From assembly GCF_003387075.1 (NCBI RefSeq), contig NZ_QUMQ01000001.1, positions 6,386,001-6,450,000 on the forward strand: 64,000 nucleotides of DNA. Direction: 5' to 3'. Both the position numbers and the translations under genes were made by a program. Origin of the DNA: Asanoa ferruginea. Lineage in GTDB: Bacteria > Actinomycetota > Actinomycetes > Mycobacteriales > Micromonosporaceae. Positions 36,692 through 44,496 of the stretch are shown here, in pieces. Every line of letters starts with the position of its first letter. Position 1 is the stretch's first letter. A model generated the notes under the pieces. That model saw only the letters and a program-made list of their open reading frames with translations, made no database searches and was not told the DNA's origin.

Positions 36692-38125
36692 CTAGCTCCG
36701 CCGGGTGACGTCGAAGGTGAACAGGTCAGCCAGGTCGAACCCCGGGCCGGTGGACGGCAGCGTCGGCTCCCAGTCGGGTTCCCCGCTCAGGTAGCTCGCC
36801 GAGTCGGCGCGCAGCAGCCCGATCAGCACCTCCGCCACGATCTGACCGCCGACCGGGCCGAGGCGGTCACCGCCACCTCGGTATTCGGCCTCCTTGAGGA
36901 TGTAGAACCACAGCGGCGTGCCGTTGGGCCAGGGCTGGTCGAGCTCGTCGGGCGTCAGCGGCGGCACGCCGAGCAGCCGGGCGACGTCTTCGCCGCTTGG
37001 CAGGCCGGTGGTCCCGCCGCGGAGCAGGTCGCGGACCGCCAGCGAACGGTAGGCGGCCTCGTCGACCGCCCCGGTCACCTGTTCGGGTAGCCCGATCAGG
37101 CTGGTCGCGAGCCGGCCGTCGAGGCGCTTGGCCCGTTGCGCGCGCGGACGGCCGGGCACGTCGAAGATCTGCGCGAGGTCGAGCCGCCGGTTGGACGGCA
37201 GCGGGCCGAAGCCGACGAGGTCGGGGAACAGCGGCACCGCCGGCCCGCCCTCGACCAACTGGTAGGTGTGCCGGATCTGACCATGGCCGTAGCGGTAGGC
37301 CGCGTCGGCGAACTCCAGCGGGATGTAGGCCTCGCCCGGCTTGGGCGCGAACCACCTGCCGCCGTCGGCGAGCACCTGCTCGACCAACGGCGTGCCGACC
37401 AGCCGGGGCAGGAAGTCGCGGACCACGATCCACTGGTAGTGCCAGGTGAGCGTGCTGCGCGCCTCGTCGAAGACGTCGGCCTCGGCCACCCCGACGGCAC
37501 GGAGCAGGTCGACGATCCGGTTGTGGGCACGCAGCAACGCGATGTGCAGGCTCAGCGAGAACACGTGCACGTCGTTGCGCGGGTCGCCGATCAGGGCCAC
37601 GCCCTGCTGGTTGCGCGGCACGTCGAAGCCGTCCTGGCCGAGCAGGAACTTGGCCGGATCGCTCAGGTCGAACAGATAGGGACAGCCGATCGGGCCGTCC
37701 GAATAGATCATTTCCAGGTTGAGCATCGGTGCCCGGGCGTTGCGCAACGTCTCGGGGCTCGCGCCGGCACCGATCGGCGACCGGTCGGCGGTGATGTCGT
37801 GCGCGATGATCTGCCCGAAGAACGGCCAGCCGGCCGCCTCCGTGGCGTCGTCTCCGCCCGGGGCCATCTCGTCGAGCGCGACCGCCGCGTCGCAGACCCC
37901 GCCGTCGCCGCCGGCGCGCATCAGCAGTTGGGGATCGGTGCCCAGCGGCGACAGGCCAGGGAACATCCGCCCGTAGCGGGCGGGACCGGTGGGCCGGTCG
38001 ACAGCGCGGGTGGGGGCGAGGCAGTGATCGCGGGCGGCCGCGTGACTGCCGTGCGGGTGTCCATGACTTCTGTCGACCTGTCCAGCGTATGCCCGCCGGG
38101 TCGGGTCGCCGGTGGGGTTGTTCAT
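36692..38125 (-). CDS. animal-type haem peroxidase
   Basis: A 477-residue bacterial member of the cyclooxygenase-peroxidase superfamily. Distal His109 is in FFGQIIAHDIT and proximal His281 in YRYGHGQIRHTY; the HVFSLSLHIALLRAHNRI helix and LTWHYQWIVVRDFLP are also characteristic. There is no signal peptide; the N-terminus is His-rich. It may oxidise fatty acids or halides. GGAGG precedes the ATG. An ECF41-type promoter element lies 80 nt upstream, linking it to the nearby sigma factor. Confidence 0.88.
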   Translation of the reverse strand: MNNPTGDPTRRAYAGQVDRSHGHPHGSHAAARDHCLAPTRAVDRPTGPARYGRMFPGLSPLGTDPQLLMRAGGDGGVCDAAVALDEMAPGGDDATEAAGWPFFGQIIAHDITADRSPIGAGASPETLRNARAPMLNLEMIYSDGPIGCPYLFDLSDPAKFLLGQDGFDVPRNQQGVALIGDPRNDVHVFSLSLHIALLRAHNRIVDLLRAVGVAEADVFDEARSTLTWHYQWIVVRDFLPRLVGTPLVEQVLADGGRWFAPKPGEAYIPLEFADAAYRYGHGQIRHTYQLVEGGPAVPLFPDLVGFGPLPSNRRLDLAQIFDVPGRPRAQRAKRLDGRLATSLIGLPEQVTGAVDEAAYRSLAVRDLLRGGTTGLPSGEDVARLLGVPPLTPDELDQPWPNGTPLWFYILKEAEYRGGGDRLGPVGGQIVAEVLIGLLRADSASYLSGEPDWEPTLPSTGPGFDLADLFTFDVTRRS

Positions 38126-38204: not shown

Positions 38205-38231
38205 GACCAGTCAGCCACCCAGGTTGTGACA
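38205..38231 (-). promoter_or_regulatory. ECF41-type promoter of the haem peroxidase
   Basis: On the minus strand: TGTCACA (38225-38231), exactly 16 bases, GGTC (38205-38208) followed by TT. It directs transcription to the haem peroxidase, whose ATG is 80 nt downstream. It is one of four identical-spacing elements around the sigma gene. Confidence 0.7.
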
Positions 38232-38245
38232 GGTCTCCGGGCATC

Positions 38246-38272
38246 CGTCACACGGAGCGGTGCTACCCGGTC
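38246..38272 (+). promoter_or_regulatory. ECF41-type promoter of the NmrA-like gene
   Basis: CGTCACA (38246-38252), 16 bases, GGTC (38269-38272) then TA. The first base differs from the other three elements. It points at the NmrA-like gene 42 nt downstream and is back-to-back with the peroxidase promoter, 14 bp apart. Confidence 0.6.
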
Positions 38273-38314
38273 TAAGAGGGTGAACGGAAATGCCGAACCT
38301 GGAAGGTTGAACAC

Positions 38315-39049
38315 ATGAAGATCGCAGTCATTGGCGGTACGGGCCTGATCGGCTCGCAGGTCGTGAAGATCCTCAACACCGGTGGGCACGAAGCGGTGCC
38401 GCTGTCCCCGTCGAACGGTGTCGACCTGCTCTCCGGCAAGGGTCTGGCCGAAGGCCTGGCCGGCGCCGATGTCGTCGTCAACCTGAGCAACTCGCCGACC
38501 TTCGACGAGGCCTCCCCGGCGTTCTTCCAGACGACGATGGACAACCTGCTGGCCGCGGCCGAGGACGCCGGTGTCGGCCACGCCGTCATCCTGTCCATCG
38601 TCGGTGCCGAGCTGGTGCCGGAGCTCGTCTACTACCAGGCCAAGGTGCTCCAGGAAGACATCCTGAAGGCCGGCCCGGTGCCCTACTCGATCGTGCGGGC
38701 CACGCAGTTCTTCGAGTTCACCGAGACGACGCTGTCCTGGACCTCCGACGAGAACACCGTGCGGCTGCCGGCCACGCTGATCCAGCCGATGGCCGCTTCC
38801 GACGTGGCGAAGGCCGTTGCCGACGTCATCGTGGGCAAGCCCTTGCAGGGCACTCGCGACGTGGCCGGGCCCGAGGTGTTCACGCTCGACGAGCTGGGCC
38901 GGATCACCCTCGCGGCCAAGGGCGACAAGCGCACCGTGGTGGTCGACGACACCGCCGGGATGTTCGCCGCCGTGCACGGTGACGCGATCATCGCCAAGGA
39001 CGGCGCCGTGATCGCCAAGACCACCTACCGGGACTGGCTCGCCCGCTGA
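38315..39049 (+). CDS. NmrA-like NAD(P)-binding protein
   Basis: A 244-residue atypical SDR with IAVIGGTGLIGSQVVKIL as the dinucleotide loop at 3-20. No YxxxK pair is evident, as in NmrA/quinone-reductase QOR2 relatives, and VYYQAKVLQEDILKAGPVPYSIVRATQFFEF is typical of that group. It may be a redox sensor or reductase. GAAGG precedes the ATG. It is divergent from the haem peroxidase and shares the ECF41-type promoter element. Confidence 0.88.
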   Translation: MKIAVIGGTGLIGSQVVKILNTGGHEAVPLSPSNGVDLLSGKGLAEGLAGADVVVNLSNSPTFDEASPAFFQTTMDNLLAAAEDAGVGHAVILSIVGAELVPELVYYQAKVLQEDILKAGPVPYSIVRATQFFEFTETTLSWTSDENTVRLPATLIQPMAASDVAKAVADVIVGKPLQGTRDVAGPEVFTLDELGRITLAAKGDKRTVVVDDTAGMFAAVHGDAIIAKDGAVIAKTTYRDWLAR

Positions 39050-39060
39050 CGGTCAAACCG

Positions 39061-39093
39061 GAGGCCCGCACGACCGACGGTCGTGCGGGCCTC
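39061..39093. terminator. 15-bp terminator hairpin
   Basis: GAGGCCCGCACGACC with its exact complement around a GAC loop, between the NmrA-like stop and the XRE regulator stop; a short TTC follows. It is probably bidirectional. Confidence 0.8.
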
Positions 39094-39094
39094 T

Positions 39095-39937
39095 TCAGGC
39101 CGACTCGTAGATCCGCTGCCCGCCGATGACCGACAGCAGCTCCAGCCGCTCGTAGCTGGCCGTGCCCGGCGAGGCGGTGTAGACCACCAGTTGCTGTGAC
39201 TGGTCGGGGTCGACCAGCCGCTGGCAGTCGAGCTCCAGCAGCCCGACCTGCGGGTGCTGGAGCCGGATCGGTCCGCAGTAGGTGCCGGCCACCGGATGCC
39301 CTTCCCAGAGGCCGGCGAACTCCGGGCTTGCGTCGAGCAAAGAATCCACAATGGATGAAGCCCGGGAACCCTTACCATCACGGGTGTACGAGGCGTGCAG
39401 GTCCGCGACGATCAGCCGGCCCTGCTCCGCCCGGTCCTCCTCGGGGTAGATCAGCCGCGTCGCGGGATCGGTGAACCAGCGGTAGTGCATGCTCCGCGCC
39501 AGTCCGGTGTGGACGCTCGCGTCGCCGAGCAACGCCACCGCCAGCCGAGTTTGCAGCATCGTCTCGCCGAGGTGCGAGACCACCTGCGCGGCGCTGTCCC
39601 GCAACCCGTCGAAGATCCGCAGCATCCCCGGATTGAGGTGGCCGGAAGAACCGGAGCGCGGTGTCGCGTACCCGCCGAGCTGGAAGAGGTGGTCGCGCTC
39701 CTCGAGCGAGAGCCGCAGGCCCCGGGCGAGGGCGCCGAGCATCTGTTCGGAGGGGTGCGGCCCACGCGGCTGCTCGAGCCGGCTGTAATAGTCGATCGAC
39801 ATGTCGCTGAGCACCGCGACCTCTTCCCGGCGCAGGCCCCTGGTCCGCCGCCGCTGCCCGCGCGGCAGCCCCACGTCTTCGGGTTGCAGCGCCTCCCGCC
39901 GGGTGCGCAGGTATTCAGCCAGCCGAGCGCGGTCCAT
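39095..39937 (-). CDS. XRE regulator with MmyB-like ligand-binding domain
   Basis: This 280-residue protein has an N-terminal helix-turn-helix (about 5-85, [34 protein letters not shown]). A PAS-like MmyB domain follows (about 105-275) with [18 protein letters not shown] and the closing [11 protein letters not shown]. MmyB-type regulators in Streptomyces sense small molecules, possibly fatty acids, and control a neighbouring SDR. Here the SDR lies immediately upstream and overlaps it by 23 bp. Confidence 0.9.
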
Positions 39938-40886
39938 CGTGGATTCCTTCCAGAACTGACTCGAGGCCGGCGGCCCGCAGCGAGTAGTCCCACAGCCGGG
40001 CCGCCTCGGCCTCGTCGCGGGCCGAGCGGTAGACCGGCAGCTCGGTCGGCGCACCGGTGAACTGGCCGATGCCGTCGGGGCCGTAGAGCCGGCCGCCCTG
40101 CGCCTGCGGGCTGGTGGCCGCGTAGAGGATGGGCAGCAGGCCCTGGTCGACGCCGTGCACCAGGACGCCCCACCTGGCCAGCCGGGTCATGATCTTCTCG
40201 TGCGGCGCGGGCTTGGCCCGGCCGAGGTTGGGGCCGGCGGCATACAGGCCGGTCAAGGTGGTGCCGGGGTGCGCCGCGTTGCTGACGATGCCCCAGCCGC
40301 CGGCCCGGCTGCGCCGGTCGAGTTCGAGGGCGAAGAACAGGTTCGCGAGCTTCGACTGCCCGTACGCCCGGACGCCCGAGTATTTCCGCTCGCCCTGCGG
40401 GTCGGCCCAGTTGAGCTTGGCCTGCCGGGCGGCACTGCTGGTGACCGTCGTCACCCGGGCCTGGCCGTCGCGCAAGAGCGGCAGCAGCCGGGTGGTGAGC
40501 GCGACGTGGCCGAGATAGTTGGTGCCGAACTGGAGTTCGTGGCCGTCCACCGTGGTGTGCCGGGTGGCGGGCGCCATCACTCCGGCGTTGTTGATCAGGA
40601 TGTTGATCGGCCGGCCCTCGGCGATCAGACCGTCGGCGAGCGTGGCCACCGACGACAGCGAGGCCAGGTCGAGGGTGCGGAGGGAGACGTGTGCGCCGGG
40701 CACCTCGGTGCGGATGCGGCGCAGGACGGCCTCGCCCTTCTCGATGTCGCGGACGGCGAGCAGCACCTCCGCTCCGGCGGCGGCCAGCGCGGTGGCCAGG
40801 CCCAGGCCCAGCCCGCCGCTCGCCCCGGTCACCAGGGCGAGCCGCCCGGCCAGGTCGGGTGCCGCGAACGTCGTCATCTTCTTCAC
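39915..40886 (-). CDS. SDR-family oxidoreductase (retinol-dehydrogenase-like)
   Basis: A 323-residue SDR of the long WWOX/retinol-dehydrogenase style. Cofactor loop [18 protein letters not shown], catalytic Ser in TVTSSAAR and YGQSK (intact Tyr and Lys), then [12 protein letters not shown]. The GTG at 40886 follows TTGGAG. It is the first gene of a pair with the MmyB-type XRE regulator. No ECF41-type element is found upstream, so it is outside that regulon. Confidence 0.88.
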
Positions 40887-40965
40887 AACAACTCCAAGGT
40901 CAGCGATGTTTCTTCAACGCTGACGCGGTGGGGGTCGGACAACCATGTTCCGTTGATACAAGGCT

Positions 40966-41331
40966 TCAGCGGCGGTGCCAGCCGGTCAGCTTGGCCGGGT
41001 TGAGCACGATCCACAGGACGGCGACCCGGGCGCCGGTCGACTTGACGGCGATCACGGCGAGCGCCTGACCGCCGCGGCGCAGGGCCAGCCCGGCCCGGCC
41101 GTTGACCGCCTCGATGGTCAACTCGGTGCCGGGTCGCCCGCACAGCAGGTCGGCCACGAGCGCGGCGACGTCGGTGGCGCCGTGGATCGGGGCGAGCGCG
41201 GCCGGCACTGCGCCGCCGCCATCACACACGGCGATGGCGTCGGCTTCGAGGGCGGTCCGGAGCGCGGTGGGGTCGCCTAGCCGGCAGGCGTCGGCCAACC
41301 CGCGCACGGCACTGTCATGCCGATCGAGCAT
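40966..41331 (-). CDS. free-standing ECF41 C-terminal-domain-like (SnoaL/NTF2) protein
   Basis: A 121-residue NTF2-fold protein that aligns with the last 115 residues of the ECF41 sigma encoded 1.4 kb away. ACRLGDPTALRTALEADAIAVCDGGG matches AARSGDLAALERLFAPDVASVSDGNG, and VLWIVLNPAKLTGW matches VLWMMNQAKISAL. The DGGG and NPxKL signatures of the ECF41 regulatory domain are both kept. Its start lies inside the NDH-2 gene (17-bp overlap). A detached regulator or ligand binder is likely (inference). Confidence 0.8.
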   Translation of the reverse strand: MLDRHDSAVRGLADACRLGDPTALRTALEADAIAVCDGGGAVPAALAPIHGATDVAALVADLLCGRPGTELTIEAVNGRAGLALRRGGQALAVIAVKSTGARVAVLWIVLNPAKLTGWHRR

Positions 41332-42655
41332 GGTCAGCGGCCGCTGGCTCGCCTCCGGTGACGAACGCCCGGCGCGGGTCCTGCACCGAGGCCAGCGAGA
41401 CGATGTCGCGGCCGAACACCGCGGCGGTCAGCCAGACGGCCAGCACCCGGGCCTTGCGCTCCCAGCTCGGCACGGCCAGGACGTGGTAGCCCCGGTGCAT
41501 CAGCCAGGCCGGCAGGCCCTTGATGACGATGCCCTTGTATTGGAAGATGCCGCGGCCGAGGCCCAGCGTGGCGACCGTGCCGAGGCTGTGGTGCAGGTAT
41601 TGCTTCGGCTCCCGGCCGCGCAGGCTCCCCACGATGTTCTTCGCGAGCAGCTTGCCCTGCCGCACCGCGTGCTGCGCGTTGGGCACCGTCGCGACGCCGG
41701 GCCGGCCGGCGGCCAGGTCGGGCACCGCCGCGTCGTCGCCCGCGCCCCAGGCGTCGGGGATCGCCTCGCTGTCGGTGCCCACCCGCAGGTCGGCCCGCAC
41801 GACGAGCATCCCGCGCGCGTCGATGGGCAGGTCGGTGTGGTTGCGCACCATCGGGTTGACGGCGTTGCCGACGGTCCACACGATCAGGTCTGAGTCGAAC
41901 TCCTGGCCGTCGGAGAGCACCACGTGGCCGTCGGTCGCGGAGACGAGTTGGGCGTTGAGGTGCACCTGCGCGCCCCGTTTCTCCAGCGAGCGCACCACCC
42001 ACTGCCCGGGCTTGTCGGTCACCTCCGGCAGGATCCGCCCGCGCGCCTCCACCAGGTGGAAGCGCACGTCGGCGGGGGAGAGCTCGGGGTAGAGCCTGGT
42101 CAGCGCGGTCGCCAGCGACAGCAGTTCGCCGAAGCCCTCGACGCCGGAGAACCCGCCGCCGACGAACGTCACGGTGAGCAGCTTCTCCCGCTGCGGGCCG
42201 GGCGCCAGCGTCGAGGCCCGGTCGAAGTTGGTCAGCAGCCGGTCGCGGATCGCGACCGCCTCCTCGACGTGCTTCATCCCGATCGCCGACTCGGCGATGC
42301 CGGGCACGCCGAGCTGGCGGGTCACCGCGCCGGCCGTGACCGCGATGATGTCGTAGGCCAGGGCGAACTCCGGGCCCTCGGCGGGCTGGATCGTGGCGGT
42401 GCGGTGGGCGTGGTCGACGTGGACGACCGAACCCGAGATGAGCGTGGTCTTGCGCAGGTGCCGGCGCTGCGAGACGGCGGCGTGCCGGGCCTCGACCGAG
42501 CCGGCCAGCACTTCCGGAAGAAACGGCTGATAGGTCATGTATGGCCGCGGGTCGACCACGACGACCCGCGCCTCGTCACGGCGGAGCTTCTTCTCCAGCT
42601 TCCAGGCCGTGTAGAACCCGGCATAGCCGCCGCCGACCACCAGAATCGTGCGCAT
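41315..42655 (-). CDS. type II NADH:quinone oxidoreductase-like flavoprotein
   Basis: A 446-residue single-polypeptide NDH-2 family protein: FAD motif VVGGGYAGFYTAWKL at 5-19, NAD-binding motif VTFVGGGFSGVEGFGEL near 170, and the C-terminal FAD segment WGAGDDAAVPD near 310. A C-terminal amphipathic tail with AVFGRDIVSLA fits membrane association. It would pass electrons from NADH to quinone without proton pumping. It follows an ECF41-type promoter element and overlaps the NTF2-like gene. Confidence 0.9.
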   Translation of the reverse strand: MRTILVVGGGYAGFYTAWKLEKKLRRDEARVVVVDPRPYMTYQPFLPEVLAGSVEARHAAVSQRRHLRKTTLISGSVVHVDHAHRTATIQPAEGPEFALAYDIIAVTAGAVTRQLGVPGIAESAIGMKHVEEAVAIRDRLLTNFDRASTLAPGPQREKLLTVTFVGGGFSGVEGFGELLSLATALTRLYPELSPADVRFHLVEARGRILPEVTDKPGQWVVRSLEKRGAQVHLNAQLVSATDGHVVLSDGQEFDSDLIVWTVGNAVNPMVRNHTDLPIDARGMLVVRADLRVGTDSEAIPDAWGAGDDAAVPDLAAGRPGVATVPNAQHAVRQGKLLAKNIVGSLRGREPKQYLHHSLGTVATLGLGRGIFQYKGIVIKGLPAWLMHRGYHVLAVPSWERKARVLAVWLTAAVFGRDIVSLASVQDPRRAFVTGGEPAAADHARSA

Positions 42656-42688
42656 GTGGTCCTCCGTTTCCTCGCAGTCGCCAGCTAT

Positions 42689-42715
42689 GACCGGGCAGCA
42701 CGCCGTTTTGTGACA
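42689..42715 (-). promoter_or_regulatory. ECF41-type promoter of the NDH-2 gene
   Basis: On the minus strand: TGTCACA (42709-42715), exactly 16 bases, GGTC (42689-42692) followed by AT. It lies 34 nt before the NDH-2 ATG and starts only 2 bp past the sigma gene stop, so the dehydrogenase has its own promoter. Confidence 0.72.
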
Positions 42716-42716
42716 C

Positions 42717-43613
42717 TCACGAGAGCGCGCTGATCTTCGCCTGGTTCATCATCCACAGCACCTTATCGATGCCGTCGGCCGAGGTGGTGACCGTGAGCAC
42801 CGCTTCCACCGCGCCGTCACGGTAGAGCAGGGCCGAGGTCTGGCCGTTGGTGTCGGCCCACCGGACCTCGATGCCCTCCCAGTACCAGGTGATCGCGGCC
42901 AGATACTTGGCGACGCGCTCGACACCGACCACCGGCCGGCGGGAGACCTTCGCCGCGCCGTTGCCGTCGGAAACGCTGGCCACGTCGGGTGCGAAGAGCC
43001 GTTCGAGGGCCGCCAGGTCGCCGGAGCGGGCGGCGGTGATGAACGTGGTCAGCAGTTCGCGCTGGGCTGCCGTGCTCACCGGGGTGCGCTTCTCGCTGGT
43101 CACGGATTTGCGGGCCCGGCTGACCAGTTGGCGCACGGCTGGCTCGGTGGACTGCAGGATGTCGGCGATCTGCCCATACGGGTAGTCGAAGGCCTCGCGG
43201 AGGACGTACGCCGCGCGCTCGTTGGGTGTCAGCTTTTCCATCAGCAGCAGGGCCGCGAACTCGAGGGCCTCGCCGCGCTCCGCGCCCAGATAGGGATCGG
43301 CGCTCGTGTCGACCGGCTCGGGCAGCCACGGCCCGATGTAGGTCTCGCGGCGTGACCGGGCGGACTGGAGCGAGTTGATGGCCAGCCGGGTCGTCGTGGT
43401 GGCCAGGAAGGCGGCCGGGTTGACGACCACGCTGCGGTCGGTCGTCTGCCAGCGCACCCACACGTCTTGCACCAGGTCTTCAGCTTCGGTCGCGCTGCTC
43501 AGCATTCGGTAGGCGATCCCGAACAACCGCGGCCGCACGCTCGTGAAGATCGCGGCGGCTGCCTCGAGATCATCGGCCCCAGCGGGCTCGACATTCACCC
43601 CGGAATCGGTCAT
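42717..43613 (-). CDS. ECF41-group (SigJ-like) sigma factor with fused NTF2 domain
   Basis: A 298-residue ECF sigma factor. Region 2 runs FTSVRPRLFGIAYRMLSSATEAEDLVQDVWVRWQ; the ECF41 linker signature WLPEP is present; region 4 has LTPNERAAYVLREAFDYPYGQIADILQSTEPAVRQLVSRARK. The C-terminal SnoaL-like domain (about 185-298) carries DGNG and NQAKI in place of the usual DGGGK and NPDKL. ECF41 factors lack a classical anti-sigma and are controlled by this domain. No matching promoter element precedes its own gene. Confidence 0.92.
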   Translation of the reverse strand: MTDSGVNVEPAGADDLEAAAAIFTSVRPRLFGIAYRMLSSATEAEDLVQDVWVRWQTTDRSVVVNPAAFLATTTTRLAINSLQSARSRRETYIGPWLPEPVDTSADPYLGAERGEALEFAALLLMEKLTPNERAAYVLREAFDYPYGQIADILQSTEPAVRQLVSRARKSVTSEKRTPVSTAAQRELLTTFITAARSGDLAALERLFAPDVASVSDGNGAAKVSRRPVVGVERVAKYLAAITWYWEGIEVRWADTNGQTSALLYRDGAVEAVLTVTTSADGIDKVLWMMNQAKISALS

Positions 43614-43698
43614 CACACGCCCCCATCCGGTTACACCGCAGCCGTTCCAGTCACCATCCTCGGCCGAACCCCCGGCAAATACCAACATCGCACGGGAC

Positions 43699-43725
43699 TG
43701 TCACAGAATCCGGGGCTGTCCGGTC
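43699..43725 (+). promoter_or_regulatory. ECF41-type promoter of the alpha/beta hydrolase
   Basis: TGTCACA (43699-43705), exactly 16 bases, GGTC (43722-43725) followed by TT, 46 nt before the hydrolase ATG. It lies in the divergent region with the sigma gene but points away from it. Confidence 0.72.
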
Positions 43726-43770: not shown

Positions 43771-44496
43771 ATGACCGAGCAGAAGCCGACCGTCGTCCTC
43801 GTCCACGGCGCGTTCGCCGAGTCCGCGAGCTGGACCGGTGTCGTCGAACGGCTGCGGGCGCAGTCCGTCGACGTCGTCGCCGTGGCCAACCCGCTGCGCA
43901 GCCTGCCGGGCGACGCCGCCTACGTCCGCGACGTGCTGGCCACCATCGACGGGCCGGTCGTGCTGGTCGGCCACTCCTACGGCGGCATGGTGATCACCGA
44001 GGCCGCCGCCGGCTCCGACCAGGTGGCCGGGCTGGTCTACGTCTGCGCGTTCGCGCCCGCACAGGGCGAGTCCGCGTTCGACCTGTCGGGCAAGTTCCCC
44101 GGCAGCACCCTCGGCGCGGCGCTGGCCGCCTACCCGGTGACCACCGGCGGCAACGAGTTCGCCATCCGCCCCGAGTTGTTCCACCACCAGTTCGCCGCCG
44201 ACGTGACCGCCGAGCAGGCCGCCGTGATGAGCGCGACCCAGCGCCCGGTCACCCAGGACGCGCTGACCGCGGGCCTGCCGACCAGCACGCCGGCCTGGAC
44301 GTCGATCCCGTCGTGGTTCGTCTTCAGCGACCAGGACCTCAACATCCCGGTCGCCCTGCACCGCTTCATGGCCGACCGCGCCGCGGCCAAGGGCGTCGCC
44401 GAGCTGGCGGGGGCCTCGCACGCGCTCTCCGTCTCCGAGCCCGAGGCCGTGACGGCGTCGATCCTCGACGCGGTGCGCGCGGTGTCACCGCGCTAA
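43771..44496 (+). CDS. alpha/beta hydrolase
   Basis: A 241-residue hydrolase of the EstC/hydroxynitrile-lyase-like type: VVLVHGAFAESASW oxyanion segment, nucleophile Ser in LVGHSYGGMVI (near residue 72), acid in WFVFSDQDLNIP and His in GASHALSVSEP. GAGGAG precedes the ATG. It is divergent from the ECF41 sigma gene and carries the same promoter element as NDH-2. The substrate, probably an ester or lactone, is unknown. Its end overlaps the phosphoesterase stop by 4 nt. Confidence 0.9.
   Translation: MTEQKPTVVLVHGAFAESASWTGVVERLRAQSVDVVAVANPLRSLPGDAAYVRDVLATIDGPVVLVGHSYGGMVITEAAAGSDQVAGLVYVCAFAPAQGESAFDLSGKFPGSTLGAALAAYPVTTGGNEFAIRPELFHHQFAADVTAEQAAVMSATQRPVTQDALTAGLPTSTPAWTSIPSWFVFSDQDLNIPVALHRFMADRAAAKGVAELAGASHALSVSEPEAVTASILDAVRAVSPR

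Follow-up and report, generated by a model that had tools for sequence, protein, structure and literature searches.

ECF41 sigma factors, a widespread group of extracytoplasmic function (ECF) sigma factors, carry a built-in regulator in the form of a C-terminal extension, and how this extension works is an open question. The accessible text of Wecke et al. 2012 (PMC3426412) describes for this group a single COE target, with neither a conserved regulon beyond it nor an evident anti-sigma gene. In two ECF41 sigmas, from Bacillus and Rhodobacter, removal of the end of the extension raised activity about 20- and 120-fold, removal of the whole extension left the sigma inactive, and dimers through the extension were put forward as a hypothetical idea (PMC3426412). 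According to a review, the extension touches the linker and blocks binding of the polymerase (PMC8999054). In Streptomyces tsukubaensis, the SnoaL-bearing ECF56 sigma SigG1 has a co-transcribed small binder, RsfG, without a Pfam match (PMC7730460), and PhyR mimics a sigma factor to draw off NepR (PMC8999054). Here we analyse a 64,000-nt stretch of DNA from the soil bacterium Asanoa ferruginea (contig NZ_QUMQ01000001.1, positions 6,386,001 to 6,450,000; hereafter the window), which encodes an ECF41-type sigma, promoters of a distinct type and a separate gene for the sigma's kind of regulatory domain.

The sigma of the window resembles Ecf41Bli, Ecf41Rsp and SigJ in its sigma-2 domain, WLPEP linker, sigma-4 domain and SnoaL-like extension, in a TGTCACA -35 element with a 16-bp spacer, and in an oxidoreductase- or epimerase-like (NmrA-like) neighbour. 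It departs from them in a -10 element of GGTC or TGTC instead of CGTC, in long conservation on both sides of this element, in several dispersed targets and in a free regulatory-domain partner. T as the first -10 base is already known from the TGTT of Bacillus licheniformis (PMC3426412). The single COE target, which is a reported habit of the group and not a sequence criterion, is not what is found here: the NmrA-like gene is COE-like, and five further such promoters precede genes in the genome. Like SigG1-RsfG, the locus pairs a SnoaL-bearing ECF sigma with a small partner lacking a Pfam match; the sigma group differs, and the available text on RsfG, to which the likeness is one of description, does not present it as sigma-derived (PMC7730460). 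As in the mimicry of NepR-PhyR, sigma-like parts would serve regulation and not transcription, but the part retained here is the regulatory extension instead of the sigma core.

We favour, with a probability of about 0.68, an ECF41-type sigma that governs a dispersed regulon through a distinct promoter and is acted on in trans by a free-domain partner descended from a sigma. Control of the regulon by this sigma is strongly supported by genome comparison, and the origin and linkage of the partner are established at the level of sequence. A literature search confined to open-licence papers found no free ECF41 domain, and the accessible text of PMC9205884 and PMC11256431 holds nothing on one. Relative to the literature surveyed, much of it seen in part, the dispersed regulon, the G/T -10 element and the long conservation around it, and the free domain together with its series of reduced forms appear to be new.

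The sigma factor and its promoter

The preliminary description of this DNA had taken the neighbouring sigma to be of ECF41 type, and the assignment stands. Its best NCBIfam models are SigX4 (TIGR02957; 319 bits, cut-off 323.25) and SigJ (PRK09636; 261.5 bits, cut-off 271), and both matches run through the extension. Pfam places r2 (50 bits) and r4_2 (47 bits) above their cut-offs and SnoaL_2 (22 bits) below its cut-off of 27, and the sole PDB match at E ≤ 1e-10 is SigJ 5xe7 (E 1e-47). The WLPEP linker is present in 44/44 sigmas scored from the clade of this protein, the incomplete sequences L126 and L161 being left out. ECF41 extensions bear a DGGG motif; at this place the 44 clade sigmas have DGNG (40), DGGG (2) or DGDG (1), and none was found in one. 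A second extension motif of the group is NPDKL (PMC7730460). Strict NPxKL occurs in 16 of the 44 and most retain NPxK, the window sigma having NQAKI. Six positions, within residues 45-145, set the clade apart, and none could be tied to the -10 base; this subgroup may already carry a name in the ECF classification.

Exact TGTCACA-N16-GGTC occurs three times in the window and CGTCACA-N16-GGTC once (Table 1), as the preliminary description had it, except that the peroxidase-side site, given there as 38225/38208, was a few bases off: its -35 element begins at 38231 and its -10 element is 38208-38205. Against the three exact sites, 100 dinucleotide shuffles of the window gave a mean of 0.04, and none reached three; the chance expectation of 0.03 proposed earlier is thus right. 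A looser pattern ([CG]GTC, spacing 14-20) returned the same three sites against a mean of 0.65, with 2/100 shuffles reaching three, and no excess was seen in the window once up to two mismatches were allowed (13 against 17.9 expected).

Genome-wide (9,071,909 bp, one contig), the exact motif has five matches and its backward-read control none. Two of the five lie outside the window, 0.7 and 0.85 Mb off, and a purely local regulon is therefore rejected. One remote site (C1:5741743) precedes a gene for what we take to be a TMEM175-like channel, with 39 nt from -10 to start; the other (C1:7276111) precedes, at 32 nt, what is presumably a second alpha/beta hydrolase gene. All five exact sites and the CGTCACA variant are followed, 32-79 nt past the -10 element, by a start codon with a Shine-Dalgarno-like stretch, which bears out the claim that each site points at a gene start; within the window the distances are 79 nt (haem peroxidase), 42 nt (NmrA-like), 33 nt (NDH-2-like, a label that we presume to fit) and 45 nt (hydrolase). 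The wider class NGTCACA-N16-[CG]GTC has 33 genomic matches and its control nine, so that this class does contain background. Within it, GGTCACA-N16-GGTC stands three times within about 400 bp at C1:4080329-4080740 (minus strand), apparently a repeat and not promoters.

Orthologs of the sigma were sought in 354 genomes of the family (Micromonosporaceae), and 46 loci of about 20 kb (0.90 Mb) were compared: 44 around these orthologs, a further ortholog locus (G106) that belongs to a different family in the order, and L086, in which the partner occurs and the sigma does not. The same motif precedes orthologs of the same genes in many of them. With the spacing left free, TGTCACA-Nx-NGTC gave 64 matches at x=16 (42 G, 20 T, 2 C, 0 A) and zero at x=10, 12-15 and 17-24; there were 27 at x=11, probably from a conserved CTGTC just before the -10 element, and 11 in total at x=8, 9, 25 and 26. 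Over the same loci, 629 permuted heads with N16-[GT]GTC averaged 0.3 matches, the largest count being 11. The first -10 base at 58 gene-linked exact TGTCACA-N16 sites (47 loci, the window included) is G in 42 and T in 16, with no C or A; the replacement of CGTC by GGTC, already proposed for the window, is thus a trait of the clade.

An extended promoter, TGTCACA-N9-GGCTGYCC[G/T]GTC-nTAGCTGG, emerges from 88 gene-linked sites in 49 loci. The search required GTCAC[AG] and [GT]GTC, so that those columns were fixed beforehand; outside them, the bases of CTG are found in 75 (C), 70 (T) and 70 (G) sites and the first G of the downstream GG in 76. GCTG is repeated 14 bp apart, flanking the -10 element (GCTGYCC-KGTC-nTAGCTGG), and the conservation is long for an ECF promoter. 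The genes served are NmrA-like (36), NDH-2-like (14), hydrolase (11), TMEM175-like (8), free domain (6), peroxidase (4), second hydrolase (2) and others (7). A sigma with the WLPEP linker is absent from the 88 proteins encoded downstream, and direct self-regulation is therefore not seen in that set. In Asanoa ishikariensis (L086 and L215), genes for the free domain and for NmrA-like, peroxidase, hydrolase and TMEM175-like proteins are clustered with GGTC promoters.

The sites follow the sigma. A genome was classed as sigma-positive when it had an ortholog that was 60% or more identical (E of about 1e-101 or lower), or else a fragment at a contig edge with 70% identity or more. On this basis, TGTCACA-N14-CC[GT]GTC occurs in 72/90 positive genomes (150 sites) and in 52/264 others (62 sites), its backward control giving 8 and 21; the comparison is weakened by a pattern that was itself picked from sigma-linked loci and by the many counted sites that adjoin the sigma. 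Within genera, positive and negative genomes carry the site in 16/19 and 17/141 (g4), 36/38 and 10/29 (g29), and 6/6 and 1/5 (g17). As the sigma and neighbouring targets could be lost together, the TMEM175-like gene was considered where it lies away from the sigma. Its promoter is present at 12/20 copies in sigma-positive and at 1/18 in sigma-negative genomes (Fisher p 0.0004), the profile used having included eight TMEM175 sites from the 88-site set. Eleven of the 12 positive sites lie within about 100 nt of the gene and one about 750 nt away (p 0.001 when 11 are counted); the negative site lies 156 nt before its gene. The 20 copies, 19 of them on another contig or far from the sigma and one (G138) 10 kb off, represent 20 of the 36 positive genomes with the gene, namely those where a copy stands apart from the sigma; the 18 represent 18 of 19 negative genomes. 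A. ishikariensis was left out, its copy (L086) following a hydrolase gene that has a site. The proposal that one sigma controls a redox set is thus upheld in substance, the motif standing before the same genes in relatives and tracking the sigma, and fails in describing the set as local.

The free regulatory domain

Behind the NDH-2-like gene, and passed over in the preliminary description, lies an open reading frame of 121 codons without a Pfam match. Its product matches positions 165-278 of SigX4 and 172-290 of SigJ, which is only the extension behind sigma-4. All 32 domains in an alignment of such sequences, some of them cut from longer proteins, match both models. Searched against the PDB, a profile finds SigJ 5xe7 (residues 176-298, E 3e-13), the next match being at 0.0015. 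The AlphaFold2 model (pLDDT 93) is predicted to be SnoaL/NTF2-like; among the Foldseek matches SigG1 7qh5 has the top rank and SigJ 5xe7 rank seven, the places between being taken by enzymes and designed proteins with the same fold. The nearest relatives in sequence are sigma C-terminal domains and not SnoaL/NTF2-fold enzymes, and the domain keeps an NPxKL end. Because the frame overlaps the NDH-2-like gene by 17 nt, it is probably transcribed from the GGTC promoter.

Close homologs (55-71%) are present in 6/120 relatives. Among sigma loci, the partner accompanies 23/47 of the clade and 0/20 of other ECF41 loci. When named genomes were scanned by the domain alone, and the best 80 of 122 relatives (actinobacterial loci) kept, a clade sigma (at least 50% identity) lay within 3 kb in 61/80, on the same strand in 52 of these; it was further off in four and not found in the locus in 15. 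The free domain thus has in 61/80 loci a trait of anti-sigma factors, that of being encoded beside or with their sigma. A promoter of its own within 700 nt precedes the domain in 39/80; in some other loci, such a promoter lies ahead of an NmrA-like gene that is followed by the sigma and the partner, and in many the domain stands beside the sigma without an NDH-2-like gene.

The 80 relatives fall into 36 that are domain only, 31 with a sigma-2 remnant and the domain, 12 with degenerate sigma-2 and sigma-4 (all Streptomyces) and one intact sigma with WLPEP (Agromyces). In the Streptomyces form, sigma-4 and the stretch of regions 2.1-2.2 are still present, and the region 2.4 stretch and the WLPEP linker are gone; the AlphaFold2 model of one Streptomyces partner is weak (pLDDT 72, pTM 0.47). 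In a tree of 118 domains (120 columns, many forks open, rooted at the midpoint only), this form joins the intact sigmas (100/98), with the sigma-2 and domain-only forms outside. Domain-only forms stand in several places: a single large group, mostly from Micromonosporaceae and Pseudonocardiaceae (89/98), Kribbella, and Acrocarpospora on the sigma side. Seven partner loci that were near-duplicates or masked and four paralogs on long branches were kept out of the tree, which included only ten of the clade sigmas, and the places of L199 and L208, which were poorly cut, mean nothing. The domain-only partners of Acrocarpospora (L275, L286) seem to keep a sigma-4 tail and branch apart from the others, perhaps as a separate decapitation. 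In one of the 13 domain-only loci checked out of 36 (L225, Planotetraspora kaengkrachanensis), a sigma-2 remnant lies in a separate frame just upstream of the domain; this is a split gene or an assembly error, and some domain-only forms may be split genes.

A recent truncation of the neighbouring sigma was rejected as the source of the free domain, since the two kinds of domain form separate clades in a comparison that left out three incomplete sigmas and nine that lacked an identifiable domain start (two from the clade, seven other ECF41). Compensation by the free domain for motifs that its sigma has lost was likewise rejected, as most clade sigmas keep NPxK.

Proposed mechanism and alternatives

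We propose that the ECF41-type sigma directs RNA polymerase to the extended promoter and switches on a dispersed set comprising the NmrA-like protein, the haem peroxidase, the NDH-2-like oxidoreductase, two hydrolases and the TMEM175-like channel, one target operon also encoding the free domain. This partner descends from a second ECF41 sigma whose core for binding RNA polymerase and DNA was lost in successive steps, in several lineages, and of which the SnoaL-like domain remains, NPxKL end included. Most likely, it binds the active sigma in trans, at the SnoaL domain or the linker, and tunes it. Made together with the sigma, a separate domain that bears NPxKL could take effect in trans where the built-in extension does. 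Being made from the sigma's own promoter or operon, it would close a feedback loop, probably a negative one, which we favour weakly; its binding, the direction of its effect and the signal are what we infer. On a broader view, for which the odds seem about even, such 'headless sigmas' would form a class in Actinomycetota, in which duplicated ECF41 sigmas were repeatedly stripped and the free domain regulates its sister in trans (for example by SnoaL pairing) under the sister's promoter, the NPxKL latch of the sister decaying.

Several observations weigh against the reading proposed here. Genus g12 shows no association between sites and sigma (1/11 with, 2/11 without). Asanoa ishikariensis (G001) has the partner, the motifs and the targets, and its nearest sigma is only 53% identical. 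Among sigma-negative TMEM175 copies, 3/18 have a good site on the other strand (8/20 among positive copies), and at one further copy the site has an altered head; since other-strand sites probably serve divergent genes, the reverse strand is not a clean control. No promoter of its own lies within 700 nt before the domain in 41/80 loci, some of these domains being in the sigma operon. The partner is missing from 24/47 clade loci, and is therefore not essential; a search of these 24 genomes, with 150 candidates scored per genome in all but one, found a clear copy elsewhere in three and an ambiguous one in G126. The sigma's own strict NPxKL is intact in 5/25 genomes with the partner and 11/19 without (one-sided p 0.011), a difference that is post hoc and not corrected for kinship. 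Finally, most clade sigmas keep their own domain and a near-canonical end, so that the partner is not a substitute for something that they have lost.

The direction of the effect could also be the reverse. As a conformational co-factor the partner would activate the sigma, giving positive feedback, and the loss of activity in Bacillus and Rhodobacter upon removal of the whole extension would agree with this (PMC3426412). Removal of the extension end alone raises activity about 20- and 120-fold in the same sigmas (PMC3426412), an indication that this end, which is retained here as NPxKL, is inhibitory; we regard activation as a doubtful but serious alternative.

A real regulon might instead include the free domain as a SnoaL/NTF2-fold enzyme with a small-molecule substrate, working alongside the NDH-2-like and NmrA-like proteins and exerting no control over the sigma. 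The fold is common in enzymes, limonene epoxide hydrolase and ketosteroid isomerase appear among the Foldseek matches, and the gene sits within a redox-enzyme operon. Nevertheless, what the domain matches in sequence is the C-terminal domain of ECF41 sigmas, searches of Pfam, NCBIfam and the PDB gave no enzyme family at E ≤ 0.001, its Streptomyces form still has degenerate sigma-2 and sigma-4, and many loci have it beside the sigma without the NDH-2-like gene. A purely enzymatic role is accordingly judged unlikely.

The sigma of the window would be a bystander if another sigma, such as a 50-55% paralog or one of ECF56 type, read the motif. Judged by similarity (12 hits at E < 1e-28), about a dozen sigmas of this genome are ECF41-like, and A. 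ishikariensis has sites without a close ortholog. Moreover, two relatives 50-52% identical to the sigma have a GGTC site in their locus, before genes that begin like the NmrA-like one, so that a wider group may share the specificity. Two paralog loci of the same genome, by contrast, carry CGTC sites instead, and within genera other than g12 the presence of this sigma predicts the sites, as it does for the unlinked TMEM175-like target; a different reader is, in our view, improbable. The CGTC sites at these ECF41 loci (L194, L197) are TGTCACA-N16-CGTC at C1:5529601 (plus) and C1:7067696 (minus), 37 and 40 nt before open reading frames, which suggests separate channels set apart by one base.

Least credible of all is a decaying pseudogene of a duplicated sigma, for although sigma parts are lost by degrees and the domain is missing in some lineages, 12 columns are invariant in 32 domains of many genera, the ratio of nonsynonymous to synonymous substitution (dN/dS) is 0.27-0.65, below 1, in 12/12 pairs, and domain-only forms scattered in the tree have kept the same part.

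The locus would provide ECF41 with a regulon of several genes whose promoter can be read, and it would be a case in which a transcription factor eroded stepwise into a regulator. With the regulatory domain occurring naturally as a separate gene beside its sigma, adding the free domain or taking it away offers a direct test of how the extension works.

Layout of the locus

Table 1. Genes and promoters of the sigma locus, in window coordinates
Feature	Position	Strand	Remarks
Animal-type haem peroxidase	36692..38125	-	An_peroxidase
Promoter TGTCACA-N16-GGTC	38205..38231	-	before haem peroxidase
Promoter CGTCACA-N16-GGTC	38246..38272	+	before NmrA-like gene
NmrA-like NAD(P)-binding protein	38315..39049	+	commonest target kind in relatives' loci
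MmyB-like helix-turn-helix regulator	39095..39937	-	overlaps short-chain dehydrogenase gene
Short-chain dehydrogenase	39915..40886	-	behind free domain, same strand
Free ECF41 C-terminal SnoaL-like domain, 121 aa	40966..41331	-	overlaps end of NDH-2-like gene
NDH-2-like FAD/NAD(P) oxidoreductase	41315..42655	-	Pyr_redox_2
Promoter TGTCACA-N16-GGTC	42689..42715	-	directly past sigma stop codon, before NDH-2-like gene
ECF41/SigJ-type sigma	42717..43688	-	323-aa open reading frame; orthologs mostly align from residue 1-40 onward
Promoter TGTCACA-N16-GGTC	43699..43725	+	before alpha/beta hydrolase, divergent from sigma
Alpha/beta hydrolase	43771..44496	+	Abhydrolase_6

The true start of the sigma is probably further in than the open reading frame suggests, near 43613. 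The promoter past its stop codon would transcribe the NDH-2-like gene and the free domain, and perhaps also the genes for the short-chain dehydrogenase and the helix-turn-helix regulator. The short-chain dehydrogenase gene is found in the same cluster in several relatives.

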